In this document: piece by piece, positions 44,268-49,251 of the stretch
How the letters are laid out: each line of letters opens with the position of its first letter
How positions within the stretch are numbered: the first letter of the stretch is position 1
NCBI RefSeq assembly: GCF_003815715.1
Contig: NZ_CP033922.1
Span: 4,512,001-4,576,000, forward strand
Source: Chryseobacterium sp. G0162
Lineage (GTDB): Bacteria > Bacteroidota > Bacteroidia > Flavobacteriales > Weeksellaceae
Length of the DNA stretch: 64,000 nt
Direction of reading: 5' to 3'
The notes under the pieces: generated by a model
Databases searched by the model: none
What the model was told of the DNA's origin: nothing
What the model saw: the letters and a program-made list of their open reading frames with translations, nothing else
Translations under genes and position numbers: made by a program

Positions 44268-45344
44268 ATGAAAATTATTTATTTTACGATTATTGTCTTC
44301 TTTTTTTCATGTTCAAAGCCTATTGAAGATAAGTGCTTCATAGATAAGATGAATACTGAAGATGTTGTGATACAGGTTGGAGATCCCCAATCTTATACGC
44401 TAAAACAAATTCTTGCAGAAAAACCTAATTATCTAGAAATTACCAATCTTACTACATACCGGGACTTTAAAACAGACAGAGCCGAATTTCGTCTTCCAAT
44501 AGCGGAGTTTGGAGAAAAGGGTGAAACAACTGAAACTAGCAATACAGTATTTGATGAAAAGTTTTCTGATCAGTTTGTATGTTTTGCAAAACAAAAGTCT
44601 GAAAATACCTTATATGGACTTGGGATGAACGGACTTGGATACTGGTTGCTAAAAATTGAAAATAATAAACCTTCTGTCTATTTTTTAGGGCTCAGTCCAA
44701 ACCTGTATTATTTCAATAAAATTCAGCGGAATCTGATTGTTGAGGGAGATTACCTCCATATTGAAGGAAGTCTGGTGAAAATCGATAATCCTATTGATCG
44801 TGGTGGGTACAAAAACTATTCAGTGATTGAAGATGGCAAATTGTTTAAAATTAAACTGAAAGATCTAATACAGGATTCCGATCAGGATGGTTACAATGAT
44901 ATTTTTGAGAATAGTTTTGGACTCAATCCCCATGAAAAAGATACAGATGGTGATGGAATCAATGATTTTGAGGATAAGAACCCTATGTTCAGATCATCAG
45001 ATAACAAATTCACCCGTCTTTATAATCAACTGGTTTCCGATACTTTTGTAGGGGCTGAAAAGTTGGATTATGAATTTCAGGTCTATCAAACAGACTGTGA
45101 ATATTTTCATCAAATCAATCCTCCTCAAAAGGTATTATTTGTACCTGAAGACAAAAAGAAGCAAACATATTACACCAAAGTTGCTGACATTATTGAAGAA
45201 ACAATTTCTCCAATACAGAAAAATAAAAAGAACCCGAACAGTTTTTATATTTATAAAGCAGGAGCTTTCTATAAAAATGATTATTCTGCAGATTATGAAA
45301 ACGGAAAGTGGGTGCTTAAAGTGGTTGGTGGATATGTTATTTAA
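44268..45344 (+). CDS. Lipoprotein with thrombospondin-type-3 calcium repeats
   Basis: A 358-residue lipoprotein (Cys15 in FFFSC). The middle has two TSP3-like calcium-binding repeats: DSDQDGYNDIFE and DTDGDGINDFEDKNP, with Asp at the ligand positions. The flanking domains are not recognised. In Bacteroidota such repeats often join surface domains. Single gene; it faces the minus-strand peptide array end to end. Confidence 0.82.
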   Translation: MKIIYFTIIVFFFSCSKPIEDKCFIDKMNTEDVVIQVGDPQSYTLKQILAEKPNYLEITNLTTYRDFKTDRAEFRLPIAEFGEKGETTETSNTVFDEKFSDQFVCFAKQKSENTLYGLGMNGLGYWLLKIENNKPSVYFLGLSPNLYYFNKIQRNLIVEGDYLHIEGSLVKIDNPIDRGGYKNYSVIEDGKLFKIKLKDLIQDSDQDGYNDIFENSFGLNPHEKDTDGDGINDFEDKNPMFRSSDNKFTRLYNQLVSDTFVGAEKLDYEFQVYQTDCEYFHQINPPQKVLFVPEDKKKQTYYTKVADIIEETISPIQKNKKNPNSFYIYKAGAFYKNDYSADYENGKWVLKVVGGYVI

Positions 45345-45368: not shown

Positions 45369-45402
45369 AAAACAAAAGCACTTTCAAACAAGTGAAAGTG
45401 CT
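45369..45402 (-). terminator. Terminator of the first Cys-rich peptide array
   Basis: Ten-base perfect stem (45377-45386 with 45393-45402). On the minus strand a T-rich tract follows. It ends the transcript started at the promoter 46425-46457. Confidence 0.82.
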
Positions 45403-45432
45403 CAAATTATAAAAATAACAAAAGGTTGATGT

Positions 45433-45588
45433 TTAGTCAAATGGTGGTTCAGGTACATACCAGCACTCCCTTTCGGTGCATCCTGTTCCTGTTATCATAC
45501 ATCGGCCGGTTTTATAATCTATACAAGAGTATGATCCGCCCATAATGGTTTTTAACGCTTTCTTATCTAATTTCTTTCCTTTATTCAT
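45433..45588 (-). CDS. GG-leader Cys-rich peptide, short type, 51 residues
   Basis: Last gene of the first array. I chose the ATG at 45586-45588 by alignment with the sister leaders (MNKGKKLDKKALKTIMGG); another ATG is two codons upstream, and a much longer frame only reads the neighbouring pseudogene in the wrong frame. The core C-x7-C-x6-C-x4-C ends in Y-V-P-E-P-P-F-D, like its sister at 46003. Function unknown; likely a secreted bacteriocin-like or signalling peptide. Confidence 0.8.
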   Translation of the reverse strand: MNKGKKLDKKALKTIMGGSYSCIDYKTGRCMITGTGCTERECWYVPEPPFD

Positions 45589-45619
45589 AGTCATTGAATT
45601 GTGTGAATCGTTAATGAAA

Positions 45620-45783
45620 CTAAGGAACAATTGGATCAGGTCTGCATTCTCTTTCTCCACAGCTTTTACTTGCTGTTTTGCATTGGCCGGTAAATAGGGC
45701 AATACATCTCATTAATCCTCCCATGATCACTCGTAATTCCCTTTTACTTAGTTTTTAGGATTGTTTGAGGTTGGGTTTTCCAT
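45620..45783 (-). pseudogene. Frameshifted GG-leader Cys-rich peptide
   Basis: The ATG frame (45781-45783) begins like the sister leaders but stops after MENPTSNNPKN. Adding one A to the run of five (five T at 45752-45756 on the plus strand) restores NNPKKLSKREL, then a double-Gly and a core C-x7-C-x6-C-x4-C ending C-R-P-D-P-I-V-P at a TAG (45620-45622). Everything except that one base is intact, so the loss is recent, a sequencing slip, or a phase-variable switch. Confidence 0.85.
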
Positions 45784-45807
45784 AGTTTTCTTAAAGGATA
45801 TATGTTC

Positions 45808-45969
45808 TTATGGTTCCAATATAGGTCTGCATTGTGGTTCTGCGCATCCCAGACCGAAAGCTCTGCATTGACCAGTCATAGGGTCTATACATTGCCTTAA
45901 TCCTCCTGTAATACTTCTTAATTCTCTTTTGTTGAGTTTTTTCCCGTTGTTTAAGTTTTGACTTTTCAT
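45808..45969 (-). CDS. GG-leader Cys-rich peptide, short type, 53 residues
   Basis: Leader MKSQNLNNGKKLNKRELRSI then T-G-G; core C-x7-C-x6-C-x4-C with the ending C-R-P-I-L-E-P. Third gene of the first array, 33 bases after the preceding peptide gene and 24 before the frameshifted copy, consistent with co-transcription. Too short to appear in routine 60-residue ORF lists. Function unknown. Confidence 0.85.
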   Translation of the reverse strand: MKSQNLNNGKKLNKRELRSITGGLRQCIDPMTGQCRAFGLGCAEPQCRPILEP

Positions 45970-46002
45970 GATTATGATTTTTAAATGTTAGATTATTATC
46001 TT

Positions 46003-46161
46003 TTAAAAAGGAAAAGGAGGTTCAGGTGCATATCTGCACTCTCTTTCTGCGCATCGTATTCCGTTAGCGATGCAACGTCCCGTTTCTGGATCAAGACACA
46101 TCTGTAATCCACCTTTGATGGATTTTAATTCCTTTTTGTTCAGTTTTTTACCGTTATTCAT
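46003..46161 (-). CDS. GG-leader Cys-rich peptide, short type, 52 residues
   Basis: Leader MNNGKKLNKKELKSIKGG; core C-x7-C-x6-C-x4-C ending Y-A-P-E-P-P-F-P-F. The ATG at 46159-46161 is preferred because an upstream Met would add 19 residues not shared by sister genes. It is the second gene of the first array, 26 bases after the long-type peptide. Function unknown. Confidence 0.85.
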   Translation of the reverse strand: MNNGKKLNKKELKSIKGGLQMCLDPETGRCIANGIRCAERECRYAPEPPFPF

Positions 46162-46187
46162 AGTATTAATTTTAAGAAGTTTGATGA

Positions 46188-46394
46188 TTACTCTATAGTG
46201 ATGGGTGCTGGTCTGCATTCTTTTTGTCCGCAGACAGGTGAAATAATGGTGCAGCCGTTGGGATATGGTGACTCACAGGGTTCATAGGGAGTTGGACAAA
46301 GTACTGGTTCCATACAATTAAGAAGTCCTCCTTTAATCGTGGTAAGCTCTTTCTTATTCAGCTTTTTCCCGAATTGTGAAATTTTTTTCTTCAT
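46188..46394 (-). CDS. GG-leader Cys-rich peptide, long type, 68 residues
   Basis: First gene of the first array. Leader MKKKISQFGKKLNKKELTTI then K-G-G. The core has six Cys (C-x5-C-x6-C-x7-C-x6-C-x4-C); its last four match the short-type spacing. It is closely related to the first gene of the second array (48997-49191), sharing G-G-L-L-x-C, E-P-C and I-I/M-S-P-x-C-G-Q-K. Preceded by the shared promoter block. Function unknown. Confidence 0.87.
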   Translation of the reverse strand: MKKKISQFGKKLNKKELTTIKGGLLNCMEPVLCPTPYEPCESPYPNGCTIISPVCGQKECRPAPITIE

Positions 46395-46424
46395 GGTTCT
46401 GATTTTTAGTAGGTTAGTTTTATA

Positions 46425-46457
46425 CGAATGTAGTAAAAATATTTATTCGTAAATCAC
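46425..46457 (-). promoter_or_regulatory. Shared promoter block, first peptide array
   Basis: On the minus strand: GTGATTTAC (46449-46457), 16 bases, TACATTCG (46425-46432), 30 bases before the start codon. The same block precedes 48429-48602 and 48997-49191. Confidence 0.7.
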
Positions 46458-46510
46458 TTTCTGTAGAAAAAATGTAATAAATATTTTGTTTTTATTAAAA
46501 ATCAACTTTG

Positions 46511-46518
46511 TATATTTG
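46511..46518 (+). promoter_or_regulatory. -7 box of the AraC-type gene
   Basis: TATATTTG, 20 bases before the ATG at 46539; a TTTG lies 22 bases further upstream (46485-46488), a plausible -33 partner. Confidence 0.5.
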
Positions 46519-46538
46519 AATTTTACAACTTGTTGATT

Positions 46539-47477
46539 ATGGAGACAATAGCTCACTCTTCATTAGAGGATTTTTATAGGGAAATGACAGCCAAACTGGG
46601 GAAAAGCCTTGAGGATATTTTTCCTAAAGGTCTCCACAAAGATATTGGACATTTTAATGTATTCGATATCGCTCAAACCCTTGAAAAAGTAAGAAGCACT
46701 TCCGAAATGCCTTATAACAGGCGGAAATATTACAAAATCAGTTTGATTAGAGGAAAAAACAGAGCCGAATACGCCGATAAGACCATTACCATAGAAAAAA
46801 ATGCGTTGCTGTTTGCTACTCCTAAAGTCCCTTACCATTGGATTCCTGAAGATGGGCAGCAATCTGGAAGTTTTTGTGTATTTACTGAAGATTTTTTCAT
46901 GAAAGAAGCTTCTTATAATTCCTTGGAAACTCTGCCTATTTTTCAACCGGGAGCGGTGCCTATATTTGAAATTGAGGATGAATTGGCTGATGAAATAGAA
47001 CTTCTTTTTAAAAAAGTAAAAAAGGAAATAGATTCAGATTATCTATTTAAGTATGATTTGATCAGGAATTACGTATGGGAGCTGATTCATTATGGTCAAA
47101 AGCTGCAGCCTGCTACAAAAATTTCAGTTTCAAAAGATGCTTCTATGAGGGTGGTGTCTTTATTTATAGAATTACTGGAAAGGCAGTTTCCTATTGAATC
47201 AAGAGAACAGCGGTTACAATTGAGAGCAGCCAATGACTATGCTGAAAGATTGTCTGTGCACGTTAATTATCTCAATAAAAGACTAAAAGAAAGCACTGGA
47301 AAAACGACTACGGAATTTATCGGTGACCGTATCATTCAGGAGGCAAAAATCCTTTTAAGACAAACCCAATGGAATGTATCTGAAATTTCTTACACGCTTG
47401 GTTTTGAAGAAATAGCCCATTTTTCAAACTTTTTTAAAAGAAAAACGTCATATACTCCTTTAGAATTTCGTTCATGA
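46539..47477 (+). CDS. AraC-family transcriptional regulator within the peptide island
   Basis: A 312-residue regulator paralogous to that at 15129-16040. N-terminal cupin-like domain with YNRRKYYKISLIRGK and K-N-A-L-L-F-A-T-P-K-V-P-Y-H-W; C-terminal double helix-turn-helix with W-N-V-S-E-I-S-Y-T-L-G-F and F-S-N-F-F-K-R-K-T. The ATG at 46539 is used; the longer frame starts at a TTG. Divergent from the first peptide array (145 bases between the start codons) and 87 bases ahead of the SDR gene, so it may regulate either or both. Confidence 0.91.
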   Translation: METIAHSSLEDFYREMTAKLGKSLEDIFPKGLHKDIGHFNVFDIAQTLEKVRSTSEMPYNRRKYYKISLIRGKNRAEYADKTITIEKNALLFATPKVPYHWIPEDGQQSGSFCVFTEDFFMKEASYNSLETLPIFQPGAVPIFEIEDELADEIELLFKKVKKEIDSDYLFKYDLIRNYVWELIHYGQKLQPATKISVSKDASMRVVSLFIELLERQFPIESREQRLQLRAANDYAERLSVHVNYLNKRLKESTGKTTTEFIGDRIIQEAKILLRQTQWNVSEISYTLGFEEIAHFSNFFKRKTSYTPLEFRS

Positions 47478-47564
47478 TTTGAATTTTGCAAATTTCGGAT
47501 TGATTCAGGTAAACTCTTTCTGATGGAAATATTCCAACTTTGTATCACTAAAACAACCAAAAAT

Positions 47565-48329
47565 ATGGAAGCAAAAACAAAAATAGCATTGGTAACCGGA
47601 GGAAGTCGTGGCTTGGGTAAAAATTCAGCCCTTAAAATTGCCCAAAAAGGACTGGATGTTATCATTACGTATAGAAGCAATAAAGAAGAAGCAGAAGCTG
47701 TAGTTAATGAAATAAAAGCTTTGGGTAGAAAGGGAGCCGCATTTCAGCTGGATACAAAAGACCGTAAAAGCTTTGATGCATTTGTGAAAGAAGTTACTGA
47801 TCACTTAAAAGAGGCTACGGGAAATTCCCATATTGATTATCTTGTCAATAATGCAGGAACAGCTTTATATGCTCCGATTACAGAGGTTACGGAAGAGCAG
47901 ATGGAGGATATGCTGGATATTCATTTCAAAGGAGTATTTTTCTTAACTCAAAAATTATTGCCATTCATCAATGATGGTGGCGGGATTATTAATATCTCTT
48001 CAGGACTGGCAAGATTTGCAACACCCGGCTCATCAGTCTATGGTTCTATAAAAGCAGGAGTGGAAATGCTGACTAAATATATGGCCAAAGAATTGGGATC
48101 AAGAAAAATAAAGGCTAATGTAATTGCTCCGGGAGCTATTGAAACCGATTTCGGTGGCGGAAGAGTAAGAGACAATAAAGAAATCAATGATATGGTAGCT
48201 GGTTCTACTGCTTTAGGCAGAGTAGGACTTCCTGATGATATTGGTGGAGTAGTGGCTTTTCTTTGTACCGATGATGCTGGCTGGATCAATGGACAGAGAA
48301 TTGAAGCTTCAGGAGGAATGTTTCTTTAA
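47565..48329 (+). CDS. Short-chain dehydrogenase/reductase (SDR)
   Basis: A 254-residue SDR enzyme. Cofactor motif TGGSRGLG, N-N-A-G, catalytic Ser in NISSGL and Tyr/Lys in VYGSIKAG (YxxxK kept), then P-G-A-I-E-T-D-F. The residues after the first strand (Y-R-S-N-K) suggest NADP(H). The ATG at 47565 begins the Rossmann fold; the longer reading adds 14 residues. It follows the AraC gene, its probable regulator, and ends at a bidirectional terminator. Confidence 0.92.
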   Translation: MEAKTKIALVTGGSRGLGKNSALKIAQKGLDVIITYRSNKEEAEAVVNEIKALGRKGAAFQLDTKDRKSFDAFVKEVTDHLKEATGNSHIDYLVNNAGTALYAPITEVTEEQMEDMLDIHFKGVFFLTQKLLPFINDGGGIINISSGLARFATPGSSVYGSIKAGVEMLTKYMAKELGSRKIKANVIAPGAIETDFGGGRVRDNKEINDMVAGSTALGRVGLPDDIGGVVAFLCTDDAGWINGQRIEASGGMFL

Positions 48330-48386
48330 TAAAGAAAAAAATGATTACCTATTCACTTCTCTGAATTTTTCAAACAAGACAAATAA

Positions 48387-48416
48387 AAAACCGGTCATGC
48401 ATACCGGTTTTTTTAT
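48387..48416. terminator. Bidirectional terminator after the SDR gene and the single peptide gene
   Basis: AACCGGT and ACCGGTT pair across a seven-base loop, with A before and T after. Confidence 0.88.
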
Positions 48417-48428
48417 TTTTTTAGACTA

Positions 48429-48602
48429 CTAGTCAATCGGATCAACAGGAATGGGAAGTTGACATTCTTGTTCCTTGCATCCTGGCCCATGATAATAACA
48501 ATAGTCTCCGTAGATTTTACATCTTACTTCTCCTCCTCCTGTTATCATTTTCAGTTCTTTCTTGGCTAATTTCTTTCCTCTGTTTAAATTTTGATTGTTC
48601 AT
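48429..48602 (-). CDS. GG-leader Cys-rich peptide, short type, 57 residues (single)
   Basis: Leader MNNQNLNRGKKLAKKELKMI then T-G-G-G; core C-x6-C-x6-C-x4-C and an acidic tail ending D-P-I-D. A solitary member lying between the SDR gene and the second array, with its own copy of the shared promoter. It is too short to appear in ORF lists with a 60-residue cut-off. Function unknown. Confidence 0.85.
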   Translation of the reverse strand: MNNQNLNRGKKLAKKELKMITGGGEVRCKIYGDYCYYHGPGCKEQECQLPIPVDPID

Positions 48603-48631
48603 GGTTTGATATTTAGAGAGTTACATATTAA

Positions 48632-48663
48632 CGAATATACGGAAAACATTAATTGTAAATCCC
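48632..48663 (-). promoter_or_regulatory. Shared promoter block, single peptide gene
   Basis: GGGATTTAC (48655-48663), 15 bases, TATATTCG (48632-48639), both on the minus strand and 29 bases before the ATG. Confidence 0.7.
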
Positions 48664-48747
48664 ATTTTAGAGAAAAAAATAAGTTTTATGACTTTCTCAA
48701 ATTAATACAGATGTTGTGGTCTTGCCTGGAAATAGTAATGCAAAAAA

Positions 48748-48780
48748 ATAAAAGTCTATCTCAAACCAGGGATAGACTTT
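48748..48780 (-). terminator. Terminator of the second Cys-rich peptide array
   Basis: Ten-base stem (48751-48760 with 48771-48780) followed on the minus strand by a T-rich tract; 32 bases after the stop of 48813-48968. Confidence 0.82.
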
Positions 48781-48812
48781 CTAAATATAATTAAGAACTT
48801 TATAAATGTAGA

Positions 48813-48968
48813 TTAAAAAGGAATTTTACATTCAGGTTCAGCACAGAACTTTCCATATTGTTTACATTCTGTAAAGCCTTCCGGTCTGCAGATTCTTAAT
48901 CCGCCTTTGATGGTACTCAATTGCTTTTTGTTTAATTTTCTTCCGTTCAGTTGAATGTTGTTTTTCAT
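48813..48968 (-). CDS. GG-leader Cys-rich peptide, short type, 51 residues
   Basis: Leader MKNNIQLNGRKLNKKQLSTI then K-G-G; core C-x7-C-x6-C-x4-C ending C-K-I-P-F. The ATG at 48966-48968 is favoured by the sister leaders. Second gene of the second array, 28 bases after the long-type peptide gene. Function unknown. Confidence 0.85.
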   Translation of the reverse strand: MKNNIQLNGRKLNKKQLSTIKGGLRICRPEGFTECKQYGKFCAEPECKIPF

Positions 48969-48996
48969 AATATAGATTTTAATAAATTGGAGATTC

Positions 48997-49191
48997 TTAA
49001 GGTCTGCATATTTTTTGTCCACAATAAGGAGAAATCATGGCGCAGCCATTCTCGTCAACATTCGAATGGCAGGGCTCCATATGAGGAAGGCATATTTCCT
49101 GAGCAGGCATACAGTCCAGCAGACCTCCTGCAATGGTTTTTAATTCCTTTTTAGAAAGCTTTTTGGCTTGTAGAGAAGTTTGTTTTTTCAT
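48997..49191 (-). CDS. GG-leader Cys-rich peptide, long type, 64 residues
   Basis: Leader MKKQTSLQAKKLSKKELKTI then A-G-G. Six-Cys core C-x6-C-x6-C-x8-C-x6-C-x4-C, ending directly after C-R-P. First gene of the second array and counterpart of 46188-46394. Preceded by the shared promoter block. Function unknown. Confidence 0.87.
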   Translation of the reverse strand: MKKQTSLQAKKLSKKELKTIAGGLLDCMPAQEICLPHMEPCHSNVDENGCAMISPYCGQKICRP

Positions 49192-49219: not shown

Positions 49220-49251
49220 CGAATATATGAAAAGTTTCAACAGTAAATCAC
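49220..49251 (-). promoter_or_regulatory. Shared promoter block, second peptide array
   Basis: GTGATTTAC (49243-49251), 15 bases, TATATTCG (49220-49227) on the minus strand, 28 bases before the ATG. Confidence 0.7.

Follow-up and report, generated by a model that had tools for sequence, protein, structure and literature searches.

A fixed chromosomal site with changing sets of cysteine-rich double-glycine-leader peptides in Chryseobacterium, and a candidate unlinked locus for their export and oxidation

Bacteroidetocins offer the nearest described comparison for small cysteine-rich peptides with a double-glycine (GG) leader in Bacteroidota. According to the available part of one account, a GG-leader peptide containing four cysteines, a thiol oxidoreductase, and a C39-type ATP-binding cassette (ABC) transporter are encoded together in a bacteroidetocin locus; deletion of the oxidoreductase weakens activity, and that part reports no obvious immunity protein (PMC6671954). 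The accessible portion of a further paper describes bacteroidetocins as acting on BamA (PMC8546649). Here, we examine a 64,000-nucleotide stretch of Chryseobacterium sp. G0162 (NZ_CP033922.1, positions 4,512,001 to 4,576,000 of the forward strand), hereafter the window, which carries an island of GG-leader peptide genes with a common Cys scaffold.

The island is a fixed chromosomal site with changing peptide content in many Chryseobacterium species. We see about even chances that it constitutes a peptide cassette served by an unlinked C39 and VKOR-DsbA-like locus, whose disulfide-bridged products likely inhibit other bacteria. In the proposed sequence of events, a GTGA-containing element would drive each transcription unit, and a C39 ABC exporter encoded beside a VKOR-DsbA-like enzyme would act in trans, trimming the leader after Gly-Gly. 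In the periplasm, the VKOR fusion would then oxidise the cores, joining their cysteines in two to four disulfides. By analogy with bacteroidetocins, the mature peptides may be antibacterial.

Seven intact and one frameshifted GG-leader peptide genes lie on the minus strand of the window. Inspection of the sequence and its open reading frames (ORFs) confirmed all eight loci and the coordinates assigned to them in the original prediction, which had been made from the DNA letters of the window:

48997..49191, minus strand: array B long-type precursor with 6 Cys, a 23-aa leader and a 41-aa core (ORFs and alignment; 6-Cys relatives in A2)
48813..48968, minus strand: array B short-type precursor with 4 Cys (start at an internal ATG)
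48429..48602, minus strand: single short-type precursor with 4 Cys and its own variant promoter-like element (ORFs and alignment)
46188..46394, minus strand: array A long-type precursor with 6 Cys (ORFs and alignment)
46003..46161, minus strand: array A short-type precursor with 4 Cys (start at an internal ATG; TIGR01847 above cut-off)
45808..45969, minus strand: array A short-type precursor with 4 Cys (ORFs and alignment)
about 45620-45783, minus strand: degenerate short-type gene with its frame split within the leader (sequence; identical split in sister genome G085)
45433..45588, minus strand: final short-type precursor of array A with 4 Cys (start at an internal ATG)

For the genes at 45433, 46003, and 48813, the internal ATG was chosen over the longer ORF start. 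Alignment of the seven intact peptides shows that K, L, K, L, I, G, and G of the basic leader are invariant, as are the last three core cysteines. The window cores follow C-x(6-8)-C-x6-C-x4-C, to which the long type adds two Cys. The split gene of G085 matches the window copy at 216 of 218 aligned bases and its frames are broken identically; the frameshift therefore cannot be dismissed as an error confined to this assembly.

A profile built from the seven window peptides matched 106 of 148 genus genomes (E <= 1e-6) and, at the family level with E <= 1e-8, 112 of 296 genomes belonging to 2 of 33 genera. The site was compared in 101 loci, namely the window and 100 relatives, 20 picked by peptide match and 80 by AraC match. 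These loci cover 69 of the 106 profile-positive genomes and 32 of the 42 profile-negative ones. Genes for YchF, the AraC-type regulator, and an SDR oxidoreductase are present in all 101, and the aminotransferase gene in 100, the one other stretch ending with its contig. Between YchF and the aminotransferase, 63 loci hold 240 peptide genes in total, all on the strand opposite AraC, with up to nine genes per island and at least two in 53 of the 63. No island peptides were found in the 32 profile-negative loci. Six of the 69 profile-positive genomes (G001, G007, G034, G060, G073, and G096) also have none at the site, their profile match lying elsewhere. Because the flanks are constant while peptides are present or absent among loci, the island is best described as a fixed site of variable content. 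The two fixed neighbours within the window are as follows:

46530..47477, plus strand: AraC-family regulator (PF12833, Pfam), divergent from array A
47523..48329, plus strand: SDR oxidoreductase (domain match; 101/101 loci)

The regulator raises the question of whether the peptides could be secreted signals, or pheromones, with species-specific cores as private channels rather than toxins. Small GG-leader peptides of neutral to acidic charge with cores varying by species would suit such a role, as would the AraC gene beside array A, which is present in all 101 loci, 80 of which were chosen by AraC match. The regulator is, however, equally kept in peptide-less genomes: it was matched in 142 of the 148, and its six absences split three and three by peptide profile (p 0.35). 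A function of AraC as dedicated peptide regulator is hence unsupported, and the encoding of several peptides by most islands also speaks against signalling. We consider signalling unlikely.

Mapped onto a tree of the four flanking proteins rooted at its midpoint, peptide presence requires 9 changes, compared with 31 on average once the labels are shuffled. Inheritance of the island content therefore appears to be mostly vertical, although losses or gains have recurred. For 238 of 240 peptides, the best match in another genome belongs to the same array, and 229 of 230 are closer to a peptide of another genome than to any paralog in their own. Since best matches lie in the same array of other genomes, arrays A and B are old, separate lineages. 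On these array-specific matches we reject the idea that one array arose recently as a copy of the other, a form of the array duplication inferred in the original prediction. The accompanying observation that a long type opens each array is correct for the window and fails as a rule, as 31 of 55 mixed 4-/6-Cys arrays start with a 6-Cys gene.

The ratio of nonsynonymous to synonymous change (dN/dS) was estimated from 253 ortholog pairs in a ten-genome clade. It amounts to 0.11 in leaders and 0.10 in cores, or 0.13 when the Cys codons of the core are set aside, values biased downward by admitting only pairs at least 60% identical. The four flanking genes range from 0.03 to 0.07. Orthologous peptides are under purifying selection, their dN/dS being low, yet evolve faster than the neighbouring genes, whose ratios are lower still.

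The leader and scaffold persist across the island genes, which were retrieved by requiring a G[GAS] leader and three or more Cys. L-12, L-7, G-2, and G-1 are present in 240 of 240 genes under a leader pattern that fixed G-2, accepted G/A/S at -1, and accepted L/I/F or L/I/M/F at both L positions. Cores contain 4 Cys in 150 cases, 6 in 81, and 8 in 9, with an odd count in none of the 240, although any Cys count from three was accepted. Such even parity is what disulfide pairing predicts. The ending C-x6-C-x4-C occurs in 238 of 240 cores, so the expected conservation of Cys spacing in relatives is borne out, and 7 of the 9 8-Cys cores repeat the 4-Cys module spacing twice.

Two C39 exporters, whose absence would have told against the original prediction, were found in the genome, at 4.03 and 1.78 Mb. 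Neither lies in the window (4.51-4.58 Mb), consistent with the earlier remark that no transporter is near, and the likely exporter is encoded elsewhere in the genome. One is accompanied by LanB/LanC in a lanthipeptide cluster. The other is accompanied by TIGR04192 and TIGR04193 genes, a VKOR plus Thioredoxin_4 fusion, and HlyD. This VKOR/C39 locus at 1.78 Mb and the island at 4.56 Mb are 2.8 Mb apart on one contig. Both domains of the fusion were assigned by Pfam, whereas "DsbA-like" is our own label. The idea that the fusion begins with a degenerate C39 docking domain at its N-terminus was also considered and is unsupported (hhalign probability 0.3 per cent, from shallow alignments).

C39 is present in 145 of 148 genus genomes, and the three without it are all profile-negative. 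The Cys, His, and Asp motifs, which are catalytic in C39 peptidases, occur in 8 of 8 aligned C39 domains. The VKOR fusion matches 138 of 148 genomes (E <= 1e-60), identity being as low as 46-47% in two of them, G066 and G087. It is matched in all 106 profile-positive genomes, and 10 of 10 VKOR-less genomes are profile-negative (Fisher p 1.4e-6, a value that overstates the association because independent events are few). Twenty profile-positive genomes have a single C39 match; both a peptide-bearing island and the exporter locus were fetched for 10 of them, and in all 10 the sole exporter is of the VKOR-linked kind. Taken together, VKOR co-occurrence and the single-C39 genomes point to the VKOR-linked locus as the putative exporter of island peptides. 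The enzyme beside this exporter, along with the even Cys counts, also favours the disulfide bonding proposed at the outset.

VKOR fusion, C39 ABC exporter, and HlyD occur together in 20 of 20 VKOR-type exporter loci fetched from relatives, the VKOR gene of one of them, G037, being broken. A loose pattern finds other GG/GA-leader peptides, one or more per locus, in 17 of the 20, and many of these peptides are Cys-rich. Four loci (L079, L080, L081, and L086) hold up to five further Cys-rich GG peptides in the interval that separates the VKOR fusion from the C39 exporter; these have MKNLKK-type leaders and different cores, and form another variable repertoire.

An unlinked enzyme of the radical SAM, DUF692/ChrH, or lanthipeptide type could instead install thioether or heterocyclic bonds in the cores. 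The genome does encode a DUF692-family protein, the LanB/LanC set, and a grasp-with-spasm pair, and the leaders of all seven window peptides weakly resemble TIGR04149, a family of radical SAM-modified ribosomally synthesised and post-translationally modified peptides (RiPPs), with a best score of 17.3 bits under a 25-bit cut-off. Nevertheless, the CPACGMG ending given for ChrH-type precursors in the accessible part of PMC10214503 occurs in 0 of 240 island cores, and all 240 have an even Cys count. Grasp-with-spasm enzymes were seen in 9 of the 20 exporter stretches and not seen in 11, although these hold the VKOR fusion. Enzymatic modification in place of disulfides therefore seems improbable to us. 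The DUF692 (MbnB_TglH_ChrH) protein at C1:265085-265717, the only DUF692 match of the genome, and the LanB/LanC/C39 set (L003) are separate peptide-modification systems of the same genome.

Metal binding, as a metallophore or metal buffer, would likewise be compatible with conserved Cys clusters in small secreted peptides. A CxxC pair is present in only 5 of 240 cores, however, and the enzyme encoded at the exporter is of a disulfide-forming type, which leaves this role very improbable.

The transcription units of the peptide genes tend to carry their own promoter-like element, consisting of GTGA-n-W-T, a spacer, and a T-rich box. The T-rich box is similar to TAnnTTTG, named as a Bacteroidetes promoter box in the available part of PMC5682007. 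The following elements and terminator-like structures were located in the window:

49220..49251, minus strand: promoter-like element GTGATTT-N17-TATATTCG of array B (pattern)
46425..46457, minus strand: array A promoter-like element GTGATTT-N18-TACATTCG, located in the stretch that separates AraC from the array (pattern)
48632..48663, minus strand: single-gene variant element GGGATTT...TATATTCG (sequence), which misses the strict pattern
45376..45403, minus strand: terminator-like stem-loop after array A (stem-loop scan)
48385..48413, minus strand: terminator-like stem-loop that follows the single gene and was detected on either strand (stem-loop scan)

The strict element lies upstream of 83 of 123 unit-first genes and 1 of 117 downstream genes (shuffles expect 0.07), counts that describe rather than independently test, as the pattern was written after inspection of such upstream regions. 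Its spacer measures 15-18 in 82 of the 83, and GTGA lies 59-64 nt ahead of the start codon in 76 of the 83. Downstream genes, flanking genes, and peptide-less islands served as controls: the element precedes ten flanking genes in 2 of 735 cases, and occurs in 60 of 62 peptide-bearing islands compared with 2 of 38 peptide-less ones. It is absent from 14 other loci examined in the same genome, including 12 GG-leader-like ones. A generic sigma-70 scan gave no excess over shuffles, and Rfam gave no match in the window.

Antibacterial action remains our best guess for the function of the island peptides, by analogy with bacteroidetocins. Action on eukaryotes such as fungi, amoebae, or plant and animal hosts would also agree with cores that are disulfide-rich, defensin-sized, slightly acidic, and present in many copies across a genus that lives on plants and in soil. 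Comparison with solved peptides gave no significant match, with tools that are weak for such short chains: Foldseek returned no PDB match for the short-type model, and a profile search of PDB sequences returned nothing better than E 0.6. We regard a eukaryotic target as a poor prospect. The predicted structure of the long type is uninformative (pLDDT 56); that of the short type reaches pLDDT 71 overall and about 85 over residues 21-40. Defence-system models gave no match for four proteins.

Several observations weigh against an antibacterial cassette served by the VKOR-linked exporter. Expression, export, disulfides, and killing are all predictions from the genes. No immunity gene was found, as ORF families of at least 70 aa (the size scanned) that are unique to peptide-bearing islands reach at most four genomes. 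Cores are mostly neutral to acidic, with a mean charge of -1.1 and a positive value in 17 of 240, unlike class II bacteriocins, which are typically cationic. A membrane-active class II bacteriocin is disfavoured on account of these acidic cores and the lack of immunity genes among the families scanned. Moreover, the tree, in which 6 of the 10 VKOR-less genomes are represented, shows only about 4 independent VKOR changes. The VKOR gene is stopped or cut in peptide-bearing G037 (C1:4131916-4133420) and G062 (C1:1647105-1648274), either by real loss or by assembly error, both genomes having poorer completeness or contamination figures. The second C39 exporter of the genome, that of the lanthipeptide cluster, could provide an alternative route. 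Finally, the strict promoter pattern is missed by 40 of 123 unit-first genes, among them the single gene of the window, whose two other units match it, and the six gene upstream regions checked in the exporter locus lack the island element.

Other features of the neighbourhood were followed as well. The window gene at 44268-45344 encodes Asp-rich repeats, is convergent with array A, has no Pfam match, and specifies a product that we take to be lipoprotein-like. Such a gene adjoins YchF in 45 of 101 loci, 21 of 63 with peptides and 24 of 38 without. An immunity or partner function is rejected, as it adjoins YchF with or without peptides. In 32 loci (20 peptide-bearing and 12 peptide-less, e.g., L141), the gap between SDR and aminotransferase encodes a membrane protein, conserved and about 500 aa long, that presumably resembles cardiolipin synthase. 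Frequent minus-strand ORFs in this gap (19, 13, 7, and 6 members) are read as chance antisense frames because all overlap the 32-member membrane-protein ORF. Elsewhere in the genome, GG-leader-like matches outside the window number 10 at E <= 1e-3 and 45 at E <= 10, some in small arrays; examples on C1 are 3865797-3867054, 2645604-2646401, 4167262-4167861, and 703118-703799.

A broader and more tentative proposal, which we place somewhat short of even chances, envisages one hub and many islands. A single conserved VKOR-DsbA, C39, and HlyD hub would cleave, oxidise, and export every Cys-rich GG peptide in the cell. Fixed-site islands with their own promoter element would gain and lose 4-, 6-, and 8-Cys modules, all built on one new disulfide scaffold and serving as interchangeable antibacterial warheads. 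If the cassette reading is correct, disulfide-scaffold peptides form a large combinatorial repertoire across much of this genus, whose members are common environmental and opportunistic bacteria; cluster-based genome mining would miss them, their maturation genes being unlinked. The family can readily be recognised by its fixed site, its even-Cys rule, and its promoter element, and deletion of a single gene set, that of the exporter, would test the whole peptide secretome at once. The earlier interpretation as a whole is partly supported.

Relatives of these peptides are already named in databases as bacteriocin or bacteriocin-like. A protein search returned 104 relatives under the names bacteriocin, bacteriocin-like, and hypothetical protein, and every genus named among the matches listed was Chryseobacterium. 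NF047798 (leader_Chryseo, "bacteriocin-like protein") listed four of the seven window peptides, at best with 21.3 bits under a cut-off of 23.5, and two of seven passed the 15.7-bit cut-off of TIGR01847 (bacteriocin_sig). Both families match the leader only, so the likeness is one of leader motif, and Pfam gave nothing over its cut-offs for the seven. In the literature searched, with most subscription journals outside it, we recognised no earlier report on this island and found no paper on VKOR paired with such exporters. Among the features of class II bacteriocins, a GG-type leader is found in 7 of 7 window peptides, GG in 240 of 240 island genes, and C39 exporters in the genome; no immunity gene beside the peptide was found among the ORF families of at least 70 aa, and most cores lack the typical cationic charge.

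Two peptide systems of the genus itself invite comparison. Chryseoviridin and other grasp-with-spasm graspetides are also GG peptides in Chryseobacterium, as far as the accessible part of PMC8939145 describes them, and the VKOR-linked C39 exporter of the present genome adjoins the TIGR04192 and TIGR04193 genes. The island peptides differ in having a Cys scaffold and no linked ATP-grasp/SPASM enzyme, and the exporter and VKOR unit stands without grasp-with-spasm enzymes in the 11 of 20 stretches noted above. The ChrA/ChrH multinuclear-iron RiPPs share the genus and Cys-containing precursors but, in the portion of PMC10214503 available, are distinguished by the CPACGMG motif, absent from the island cores, and by a linked DUF692 enzyme, whereas the DUF692 gene here lies at 0.27 Mb.

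The closest resemblance in outline is to the bacteroidetocins (proposed class IIf), as portrayed in the available parts of PMC6671954 and PMC8546649. Both occur in Bacteroidota, combine the GG leader and four Cys with a thiol oxidoreductase and C39-type ABC transporter, and show no obvious immunity protein. No Bd-A/Bd-B model turned up in profile-library scans of the seven peptides, and no direct sequence comparison was made. The island peptides are not filed as bacteroidetocins, a separation drawn from gene arrangement rather than from sequence. Bacteroidetocin peptide, oxidoreductase, exporter, and membrane protein make up one four-gene locus in the text consulted, whereas the Chryseobacterium island gathers up to nine peptide genes in 4-, 6-, and 8-Cys forms at a site 2.8 Mb from the candidate exporter.

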